NCBI GenBank assembly: GCA_902606835.1
Contig: CACLHW010000002.1
Location: forward strand, 62,001-126,000
DNA length: 64,000 bases
Source: an uncultured Pelagibacteraceae bacterium
Lineage (GTDB): Bacteria > Pseudomonadota > Alphaproteobacteria > Pelagibacterales > Pelagibacteraceae
Reading direction: 5' to 3'
Made by a program: the position numbers and the translations under genes. Below, in pieces: positions 14,279-19,769 of this stretch (the first letter of the stretch is position 1; each line of letters opens with the position of its first letter). The notes under the pieces were generated by a model. The model made no database searches. It was not told the DNA's origin and saw only the letters and a list, made by a program, of their open reading frames with translations.

Positions 14279-15380
14279 TTATTTTTTTCCTTTTTTTTCA
14301 TAAAGTGCTGCTTCTAAAAAATCATCAATATCGCCGTTTAAAACACTTTCTGGATCTGTATTTTCTAAACTATTTCTTAAATCTTTTACCAGTTGATATG
14401 GTTGCAAAACATAAGATCTTATTTGATGCCCCCAACCAATATCTGTTTTTGATTTTGCCAAATTTTCAGATGCCTCTTCTTTCTTTTGCATCTCATATCT
14501 GTACAAGCGTGCTTTTAACATATTAAAACATGTTTCTTTATTTTTATGTTGAGATCTTTCATTTTGACACTGAACTACTATACTTGTTGGTATGTGTGTA
14601 ATTCTTACAGCACTATCTGTTGTGTTTACATGTTGTCCACCTGCCCCGCTCGATCTGTAAGTATCAATCCTTATATCTTTTTCCTGAATATCTATTTTAA
14701 TACTATCATCCAAGACTGGATAAACCCAAACACTGGCAAAACTAGTATGACGTCTTGCTCCAGAGTCAAAAGGGGAAATTCTGACTAACCTATGAACACC
14801 TGATTCTGATTTTAACCAACCATACATATAAGATCCTGAAATTTTAAGGGTGCACGATTTTACACCTGCTTCCTCTCCTTTATGCTCACTAATAATTTGA
14901 AATTTACCCCCTTTTTTTTCTGTCCACTTTGAATACATTCGTCTTAGCATTTGTGCCCAATCTTGACTCTCTGTACCACCTGCGCCCGCATGTATTTCCA
15001 AATATGTATCTAGATGATCATTTTCCTGTGATAAAAAACATGAAACTTCAACTTTTTTTATTTGGTTAAGTATTAAAGATATTTTTTTCTCACAATCTTT
15101 AATCACTTGAAGTTCATTTTCTCTTGTAGCAAGCTCAAAGAGTTGTTCAACATTTTCCAATTCATTCACTGAACTATCGAAATTACTAATAATATCGCTA
15201 AAGAACTTTTTTTCTTTTAGTATTTTTTGAGCAGATTGTTTATCTTTCCAAAAATTTTCTTTGGTTATCTTTTTATCAAATGCTTGGATTTTATCTTTGA
15301 CTTTATTTTTATCAAAGATACCCCCTAATATTATCTATAACTTTTTTTATTAACAAAATTTTATTTTTAATATCTTCCAT
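14279..15380 (-). CDS. prfB: Peptide chain release factor 2, with programmed +1 frameshift
   Basis: RF2 releases peptides at UGA and UAA. The gene is in two frames: ATG at 15378-15380 begins MEDIKNKILLIKKVIDN, and after codon 22 (CTT, 15315-15317) an in-frame TGA (15312-15314) stops the zero frame. A +1 shift continues as DKNKVKDKIQAFDKK through to the stop at 14279, giving 366 residues, the normal RF2 length. The downstream frame has the GGQ loop (SSGAGGQHVNTTDS) and the anticodon-mimic segment. Annotating only the downstream frame from an internal GTG at 15169 would lose about 70 residues. It starts 2 bases after mrcA. Confidence 0.96.
15312..15326 (-). other. RF2 programmed frameshift signal
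   Basis: Minus-strand reading AGGGGGTATCTTTGA: an internal Shine-Dalgarno-like AGGGGG (15321-15326), a 3-base spacer TAT, slippery CTT and the UGA stop. This is the classical arrangement of bacterial prfB, in which low RF2 levels let the ribosome pause at UGA and slip forward by one. It gives autogenous control of RF2 synthesis. Confidence 0.96.
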
Positions 15381-17812: not shown

Positions 17813-17863
17813 ATGCATATATTTGTTGATAATTTTAATGTATATCTAATTGTTAACAATTAA
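17813..17863 (+). CDS. Possible 16-codon upstream ORF in the RNase E leader
   Basis: An ATG at 17813 preceded by AAAGG (17801-17805, 7-8 base spacing) opens a short frame encoding MHIFVDNFNVYLIVNN and a TAA at 17861-17863. It ends 52 bases before the rne start. A perfect 14-base palindrome (17848-17861, AATTGTTAACAATT) overlaps its 3' end. In so A+T-rich a leader, short ORFs and palindromes arise by chance, so this is only a candidate leader peptide. Confidence 0.2.
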   Translation: MHIFVDNFNVYLIVNN

Positions 17864-17915: not shown

Positions 17916-19769
17916 ATGGAAAAGAATTTATACATCGATGCTTCGCATCCAGATGAAACTAGAGTCGTACTCAAGTCAGAAAATCATATTGAAGAATATG
18001 AGTATGAAAACAAAAATAAACTTTATTTAAAAAGTAACATCTATTTAGGAAAAGTTACAAGAATTGAACCTTCTTTACAGGCGGCTTTTATAAATTATGG
18101 TAAAGAAAGGCACGGCTTCTTAGCTTTCAATGATATACAGTCTGATTATTATCAAATACCACATGATGACAAGGAGAAACTAAAGAAAGAAGAAGAAAAT
18201 TTAAGATTACAACTTAAAGAAAAAAGTAAAAATGTAGAAGAAATTGAAAAAAATCAAAATCCTGAAGAAACATTATCAACAAATACCTCTCCTTCTGGCC
18301 AAGAAGAAAATGGTGCTACTAATGAAAAAAATAAATCAGAAAATTTAAGATCTGATAAAAGTGATCAATTCAATGAATTAAAAAAAAAACACGGTATTAG
18401 AAGATACAAAATACAAGAAGTGATTAAACCTGATCAAATAATTTTGGTACAAATTTTAAAAGATGAGAGAGGTCAAAAAGGTGCCGCTTTAACTACTTTT
18501 ATATCTCTTGCAGGAAGATATAGTGTTTTAATGCCTAACACTCCCAAAGGTGGAGGTATTTCTCGTAAAATAGTCAATTCTGATGATAGAAAAAAAATTA
18601 GAAAAATTTTACAGGAAATTGATATACCGCCAACTATGGGTTTAATTGTGAGAACCGCAGGTTTAAACAAAACAAAAAATGAACTTAACAAAGATATAGT
18701 TAATACAATAAAAACTTGGGAAGAAATTAAAGAAAAAACTGTAATGTCAATTGCGCCAAGTTTGGTTTACGAAGAAGGAGATGTAATAAAAAGAGCAATA
18801 AGAGATATTTATGATAATGAAACTAATAATATCATTGTTGATGGAAACGAAGGTTATCAAAAAGCTAAAAATTTTATGAAATTTTTAATGCCGGAAAATG
18901 TTAAAAAAGTAAAGAAATATAGAGGTAAAATTCCACTTTTTCATGATGCTGCAATTGAAAAAAGTTTAAATAGAATATTTGATGCTACAATAAAATTAAA
19001 ATCAGGGGGCTATATTGTAATTAATCCTACTGAGGCTCTGGTTTCTATTGATGTAAATTCTGGACAATCAATAAGAGAATCTAATATAGAAAAAACAGCT
19101 TTAATGACAAACCTTGAGGCAGCTGAAGAAATTTCAAGGCAAATAAAAATAAGAGATCTTTCAGGTCTAATTGTAATTGATTTTATAGATATGTTTAGTT
19201 TTCACAACAGAAAAACAGTTGAAAGAAAACTAAAAGAAAAATTGAAAGACGATAGAGCCAGAATGCAATTTGGTAAAATTAGTAACTTTGGCCTACTTGA
19301 AATGACAAGACAAAGACTGAGAGAAAGTTCTGTAAAATGGAATATGGTTCTTTCGCTTGATTCTTTTTCATTAAAAGTTGTTAAAAAAGGTGAAGAATTA
19401 GCTTTTTCTAATAAAGCTAAAATTATAAATATAAATATTCCATCAAAAGTAAAAACATATATTGACCAAAATTTATCTAAAGAAATAAATCATTTTAAAA
19501 AAAGATATAAATTAGATTTTAACATAATTTCAGACGAGAAATTAGCTATTCCGGAATATAAAATAGATTTATTAAATAAAAATAAAAAAATTATTAAAAA
19601 AATAGAAAATATTGAAAAATTGGAAAATACACACTCAAAAAAATATTTTATCAGACAAAATTTTAGATACAAAAAGAAAAATAAAAATTTTAAATCAAAA
19701 GGAAAATTTAAATACTATTCAAAATCAAAAAGAAATAATTATTCAAACAAAAAAGTACTAAATTATTAA
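17916..19769 (+). CDS. rne: Ribonuclease E/G
   Basis: Endoribonuclease for rRNA/tRNA processing and mRNA decay. The start is set at the ATG giving MEKNLYIDASHPDETRV, the normal family N-terminus; an in-frame TTG 22 codons earlier is unlikely. Layout of 617 residues: RNase H-like start, S1 domain interrupted by a charged Glu/Lys/Asn-rich insert (about 85-150), 5'-sensor, and DNase I-like domain with catalytic Asp379 (SIDVNSG) and Asp422 (VIDFIDM), whose 43-residue spacing equals that of E. coli Asp303/Asp346. The Zn-link CPxCxGxG motif expected after MTRQRLRES is missing and the protein has no cysteine. The C-terminus is a short Lys/Arg/Tyr/Asn-rich tail, not a long degradosome scaffold. Confidence 0.93.
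   Translation: MEKNLYIDASHPDETRVVLKSENHIEEYEYENKNKLYLKSNIYLGKVTRIEPSLQAAFINYGKERHGFLAFNDIQSDYYQIPHDDKEKLKKEEENLRLQLKEKSKNVEEIEKNQNPEETLSTNTSPSGQEENGATNEKNKSENLRSDKSDQFNELKKKHGIRRYKIQEVIKPDQIILVQILKDERGQKGAALTTFISLAGRYSVLMPNTPKGGGISRKIVNSDDRKKIRKILQEIDIPPTMGLIVRTAGLNKTKNELNKDIVNTIKTWEEIKEKTVMSIAPSLVYEEGDVIKRAIRDIYDNETNNIIVDGNEGYQKAKNFMKFLMPENVKKVKKYRGKIPLFHDAAIEKSLNRIFDATIKLKSGGYIVINPTEALVSIDVNSGQSIRESNIEKTALMTNLEAAEEISRQIKIRDLSGLIVIDFIDMFSFHNRKTVERKLKEKLKDDRARMQFGKISNFGLLEMTRQRLRESSVKWNMVLSLDSFSLKVVKKGEELAFSNKAKIININIPSKVKTYIDQNLSKEINHFKKRYKLDFNIISDEKLAIPEYKIDLLNKNKKIIKKIENIEKLENTHSKKYFIRQNFRYKKKNKNFKSKGKFKYYSKSKRNNYSNKKVLNY

Follow-up and report, generated by a model that had tools for sequence, protein, structure and literature searches.

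The RNase E gene and its parts

The window, by which we mean the whole 64,000-nucleotide stretch of DNA analysed here, carries on its forward strand a gene for an RNase E from which the Zn-link is missing. The gene and its parts are listed below, with the basis for each assignment in brackets.

17916..19769, + strand: RNase E gene, 617 aa, without Zn-link (open reading frame from ATG; PF10150 and TIGR00757 matches)
18156..18401, + strand: charged stretch inserted into the S1 domain, about residues 81-162 (unaligned stretch between two E. coli segments)
18504..19316, + strand: RNase_E_G catalytic region, residues 197-467 (Pfam PF10150)
19050..19052, + strand: catalytic Asp379, equivalent to E. 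coli D303 (alignment; invariant in 53 aligned proteins)
19179..19181, + strand: catalytic Asp422, equivalent to E. coli D346 (alignment; invariant in 53 aligned proteins)
19326..19355, + strand: segment replacing the Zn-link, residues 471-480, SSVKWNMVLS (alignment and model comparison)
19338..19340, + strand: codon of Trp475, unvarying within the order (104/104 distinct proteins)
19356..19610, + strand: small domain, residues 481-565, predicted to be folded (PF20833; AlphaFold2 model)
19620..19766, + strand: short, basic C-terminal tail rich in Lys, Tyr and Asn, predicted to be disordered (pLDDT < 50 for residues 569-617)

An in-frame TTG at 17850, upstream of the ATG, offers an alternative start that would give a protein of 639 aa. 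The match to RNase_E_G (PF10150, residues 197-467) reaches 322.9 bits (E 2.2e-96; cut-off 25.5), and that to TIGR00757 reaches 469.8 bits, above its cut-off of 326. The small-domain model PF20833, which the window protein matches from profile position 11 on, gives 30.0 bits (cut-off 26.8), while the S1 model PF00575 gives 21.0 bits, slightly below its cut-off of 22; the fold search also brought up S1 structures from E. coli. The protein scored below the cut-offs of NF008074, the E. coli-type RNase E equivalog (388.9 bits; cut-off 908, for a model of 1068 positions), and of NF008689, the RNase G model (279.2 bits; cut-off 594). E. coli RNase E is the top PDB match both by sequence and by predicted fold (Foldseek), and the best named relatives are Pelagibacteraceae proteins. 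In line with the preliminary description, which was made from the letters of the window, the catalytic residues Asp379 and Asp422 fall opposite the E. coli Asp pair, with a spacing of 43 in both proteins. The alignment to E. coli also identifies R246/T247 as the 5'-sensor Arg-Thr, and the Asp pair and Arg-Thr are all invariant among 53 aligned proteins; extracts of PMC2631609 name the E. coli residues as catalytic D303/D346 and 5'-sensor R169/T170. There is no doubt that the window gene is an RNase E of the Rne/Rng family, a membership that stands firm despite the absent Zn-link, and it is on its other features that we class the protein as a Zn-link-less variant. The gene provides the one RNase_E_G match in the whole source assembly (965 kb in 36 contigs, 78% complete), and three genomes of the same family that are 99-100% complete (G030, G024 and G037) have one such match each.

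Compared with known enzymes, the window protein is like E. coli RNase E (PDB 2bx2, 5f6c and 2vmk) in its domain order, its Asp pair and their spacing, its 5'-sensor Arg-Thr and its small domain, and is unlike it in having no Zn-link, a linker shorter by about 11 residues with an unvarying Trp, an insert in the S1 domain and a very short C-terminal tail. The alphaproteobacterial S1 insert is shared with Caulobacter crescentus RNase E (PDB 4oxp), whose S1/5'-sensor fold matches at 46% identity; unlike the window protein, however, the Caulobacter enzyme keeps the CxxC as CEHC (extracts of PMC12510024) and has a long C-terminal domain, residues 566-898, that is disordered. E. coli RNase G resembles the window protein as a member of the RNase_E_G family that lacks a long scaffold tail, but keeps the CxxC and has 27 residues at the site of the S1 insert. 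The archaeal FAU-1 / RNase W proteins (8wo8, 8rza) are distant RNase E/G-like fold matches (E about 1e-7, 14-15% identity) and not close relatives, and extracts of PMC11602121 report a novel active site for them.

A charged insert that splits the S1 domain had also been pointed out. The insert is real, since the stretch from HGFL to YKIQEV spans 98 residues here and 27 in E. coli RNase G, but it is an ordinary alphaproteobacterial feature: the median length is 95.5 in 136 other alphaproteobacterial rows, and a charged S1 insert of about 50 to 150 residues is described for alphaproteobacterial and plant RNase E in extracts of PMC4245959. E. coli RNase E stands outside this length comparison, as its fetched rne locus misses the first 189 residues. 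The RNase E proteins of Pelagibacterales and Rickettsiales are noted as short in extracts of PMC5436854.

The Zn-link is absent throughout Pelagibacterales

According to extracts of the published E. coli work (PMC2631609), one zinc is common to two CPxCxGxG motifs, one per monomer, and lies between the large and the small domain; deletion or mutation of this Zn-link leaves no tetramer and brings a substantial loss of activity. The same extracts have the small domains joining the two dimers, so that the Zn-link is not itself the dimer-dimer contact. The preliminary description, in which the Zn-link holds the dimer of dimers together, is therefore right in that mutation of the motif blocks tetramers, but the contact itself runs through the small domains (PMC2631609, in part).

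There is no cysteine among the 617 residues of the window protein, as had been noticed at the outset, and RQRLRES is followed directly by SVKWNMVLSLDSF. In the alignment the CPRC pair of E. coli Rne falls opposite a gap, which bears out the earlier reading that the CPxCxGxG segment has been replaced. None of the 123 Pelagibacterales loci that extend into the region has the CxxC; these loci correspond to 104 distinct proteins because the two Pelagibacterales collections overlap, with several contigs in common. The CxxC was thus missing from each of the 70 whole-genome loci, that of the source genome included, and from each of the 53 named Pelagibacteraceae loci reaching the region (a 54th is truncated). 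The whole-genome loci were drawn from two sampled families (f1 and f2); 88 of the 100 Pelagibacterales genomes sampled gave a match and 12 did not. Loci were fetched from 70 of the matching genomes, and the 18 left out include many whose matches are split or partial. From the 107 named loci, 80 were kept. A sequencing error or frameshift in the source genome, which had been raised as a way to explain the missing motif, is ruled out by this alignment with SAR11 and other alphaproteobacterial RNase E sequences, since the whole order lacks the CxxC (0/123 loci). The absence of the Zn-link is an order-wide Pelagibacterales variant of RNase E.

What stands in place of the motif is a shorter but strongly constrained segment. 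Pelagibacterales have a linker some 11 residues shorter than that of proteins with the Zn-link, and it follows the cysteine-free pattern [RK]-[EQ]-[SGA]-x-[IVL]-x-W-x-x-x-L-[STA], in which Trp475 and Leu479 do not vary in any of the 104 distinct proteins and most of the surrounding positions do. The frequency of Trp at column 475 is 0.0 among Zn-link rows that have a residue there. We defined order-specific columns as those at or above 90% in 105 Pelagibacterales rows and at or below 15% in 147 Zn-link rows; eight were found, five of them conservative swaps (D/E, S/T or K/R). The three non-conservative ones are W475, L479 and K487, each of them at the former Zn-link or immediately beyond it.

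It is extremely improbable that other residues bind zinc at the same interface, a case that the preliminary description had named as one that would overturn its reading, or that a partner protein supplies the clamp. The window protein has no cysteine, a motif search across 124 Pelagibacterales loci found short Cys/His spacings in no more than 6, and no CxxC was found anywhere in the Pelagibacterales proteins.

Zn-link losses elsewhere in Alphaproteobacteria

Outside the order the motif is widely kept. It is present in 120 of the 126 distinct RNase E proteins of other alphaproteobacteria that reach the region, and in each of the 26 further named loci (from Rickettsiales and other Alphaproteobacteria, Gammaproteobacteria, Nitrospina relatives and one Deltaproteobacterium). 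The alphaproteobacterial sample was non-random, consisting of the 30 best and 90 hand-picked of 289 genomes plus two added sets, the 90 being mostly small or low-scoring genomes. It gave 138 distinct proteins, 12 of which were set aside as below 250 bits or short of the region. Among those set aside, L131, L183, L184, L187 and L188 have the CxxC and L130, L185, L186, L189, L190, L191 and L291 do not; L130 and L189 stop short of the region, and the remaining set-aside proteins look RNase G-like or partial. A 2025 paper, in the extracts available, states that RNase E homologues across the Alphaproteobacteria conserve the CxxC (PMC12510024); given its absence from Pelagibacterales, that statement needs an exception for the order. 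In two of the 289 alphaproteobacterial genomes, G195 (97% complete) and G233 (92% complete), neither the family search nor the protein search turned up an RNase E/G match.

The six alphaproteobacterial proteins without the CxxC comprise five from one small-genome family, f24 (L127 and L287-L290, from G121 and G385-G388), and one from f113 (L142, from G210). All five f24 proteins have a loop of ordinary length with Gly or Ser in place of the two cysteines; G389 (54% complete), the sixth f24 genome, had no RNase E match. In L142 the Zn-link loop is deleted, and its small domain still gives a clear match (54.0 bits); this loss is less certain because the protein has two unresolved residues. The Pelagibacterales form, a shortened linker bearing the Trp and Leu, is distinct in kind from these other losses.

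These recurrent losses in small alphaproteobacterial genomes, by cysteine replacement in f24 and by loop deletion in G210, are what would be expected had a streamlined genome simply lost the Zn-link through neutral decay, leaving a less efficient enzyme and a segment with no replacing role. We regard neutral decay as improbable for Pelagibacterales, however, where both the Trp and the Leu are the same in every one of the 104 distinct proteins. Many small genomes, moreover, keep the motif, including the three of 0.6 Mb in the sample, whose lower-scoring RNase E/G proteins retain the CxxC (L131, L184 and L187).

A profile of the shortened segment, run phylum-wide, matched 393 of 397 genomes, and the two Pelagibacteraceae in that sample scored highest (G000, 149 bits; G030, 148 bits; the next, 110 bits). 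Thirty loci were fetched from among the phylum-wide matches listed, and the CxxC was present in all 28 of those outside the order; losses beyond those found here are possible among weaker-scoring genomes of the phylum. When the columns of the Zn-link were masked for tree building, 25 Pelagibacterales proteins grouped together with a support of 0.646, f24 adjoined them at 0.224, which is no real support, and L142 lay elsewhere. A single loss in Pelagibacterales is therefore likely, but not proven because the support for the group is weak. The placements of f24 and L142 point to at least two, and probably three, losses of the Zn-link within Alphaproteobacteria.

The small domain and the structure models

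The AlphaFold2 monomer model of the window protein has a mean pLDDT of 77 and a pTM of 0.67, and predicts a small domain that begins at residue 481 and runs helix-strand-helix-helix-strands. The model of a control protein with the Zn-link (L252, cut at residue 640) has the small-domain helices and strands in the same order, as far as it was modelled. The stretch linking the final strand of the catalytic domain to the first long helix of the small domain has 16 residues in the window protein and 27 in L252. Residues 471-477, Trp475 among them, have a pLDDT below 50 in the monomer model. We considered this a possible sign of a disordered joint and dropped the idea, since confidence is also low in the control at linker residues 551-555 and 561-563; as both linkers are of low confidence, the monomer models do not inform on the packing of Trp475. 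Superposition on E. coli RNase E by Foldseek (573 columns) gave a TM-score of 0.55 and an rmsd of 16.6 Å, so the arrangement of domains in the monomer model is not to be trusted, although single domains match.

We also compared small-domain conservation with that of the Zn-link set at matched identity of the DNase I subdomain. Conservation was 0.317 in Pelagibacterales vs 0.357 in the Zn-link set in the 0.70-0.75 bin, and 0.526 vs 0.457 at 0.80-0.85; over the range 0.60-0.75 the Pelagibacterales small domain was slightly less conserved. The comparison is mixed and a clear relaxation is absent, so the notion of a relaxed small domain was set aside; its divergence appears broadly to track that of the Zn-link set. 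Within the order, the PF20833 match falls slightly below the cut-off in L043 and is unreported in L053.

A proposed metal-free joint

Because the shorter linker carries an unvarying Trp and Leu at the former Zn-link, these observations fit a joint that needs no metal. Most likely, the zinc-sharing loop was cut by about 11 residues in a Pelagibacterales ancestor and a cysteine-free linker took its place. Trp475 and Leu479 would then pack between the catalytic and small domains, where E. coli has the zinc and its thiolates, probably against the partner protomer, and the linker bearing them would hold both the active-site dimer and the small domain in place with no metal. We give an even chance to a metal-free joint of this kind, with Trp475 in the place of the zinc and ancestral loop shortening as its origin. 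The fuller proposal, that the order replaced the zinc-sharing joint of its chief endonuclease of RNA decay by a Trp-centred, metal-free one that still forms an active dimer of dimers, is made tentatively, and each of its components is an inference: the packing of Trp475 and Leu479, any contact they make with the other protomer, the lack of a metal and the persistence of the dimer of dimers.

The preliminary description had offered two outcomes, an enzyme stabilised differently or one that acts as a dimer. These were a fair pair, and the comparisons favour the first while the second keeps its standing. In a dimeric enzyme, protomers would associate through their DNase I-like subdomains, the tetramer would have been abandoned, the small domain would serve in RNA binding or stability, and Trp475 would cap the linker within its own protomer. 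Such an arrangement is consistent with the E. coli work, in extracts of which motif mutants form no tetramer and the faces of the DNase I subdomain dominate the dimer interface (PMC2631609), and with the slightly lower conservation of the small domain at larger distances. The same extracts, however, report that removal of the motif costs the E. coli enzyme substantial activity, and the window gene is the sole RNase E/G gene found in its 78%-complete assembly. The small domain, furthermore, is kept and is predicted to fold. E. coli RNase G is a dimer and keeps the CxxC, so the Zn-link is not simply a marker of the tetramer. We consider a dimer rather unlikely, and prefer different stabilisation because the small domain has been kept, seems to diverge at about the usual pace and is preceded by an unvarying Trp and Leu at the site of the motif.

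A scarcity of zinc or cysteine for SAR11 might instead have driven the removal of the motif, and 62 of the 104 distinct Pelagibacterales proteins indeed have no cysteine at all, the remainder having 1 to 5. Such an economy would be a driver and not a mechanism, and can be compatible with the metal-free joint. It is nonetheless a very improbable explanation, given that most Pelagibacterales retain two other zinc domains: that of DnaJ was found in 58 of 58 genomes and that of ClpX in 51 of 58 (42 of the 44 most complete), in a test that covered these two families by profile score rather than by a check of each cysteine. In these two families structural zinc shows no general stripping, and we set aside general zinc stripping in the order as unsupported.

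Pelagibacterales, or SAR11, are among the most abundant bacteria in the ocean, and their Zn-link-less RNase E is an order-wide new form of a known enzyme; in the open-access literature searched we found no description of a Zn-link-less RNase E in SAR11. Loss of the motif costs the E. coli enzyme its tetramer and a substantial share of its activity, according to extracts of PMC2631609, yet this order runs without it. With apparently no second RNase E/G gene, the order amounts to a natural experiment on the purpose of the zinc. If the metal-free joint is real, the zinc of RNase E would be a replaceable structural device. The Pelagibacterales enzyme is predicted not to offer copper or oxidants the thiol site of the Zn-link.

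Sequences around the gene

No structured leader was detected upstream of rne (z-score -0.56), and the window gave no Rfam matches. On the reverse strand, the prfB gene for release factor 2 (14279-15380) contains a putative programmed +1 frameshift site at 15312-15317 (AGGGGG-TAT-CTT-TGA), where the upstream frame stops at the TGA and the RF2 frame is open just beyond. In the list of open reading frames prfB begins too late, at a GTG. The site presumably follows the known +1 frameshift arrangement of RF2 genes.
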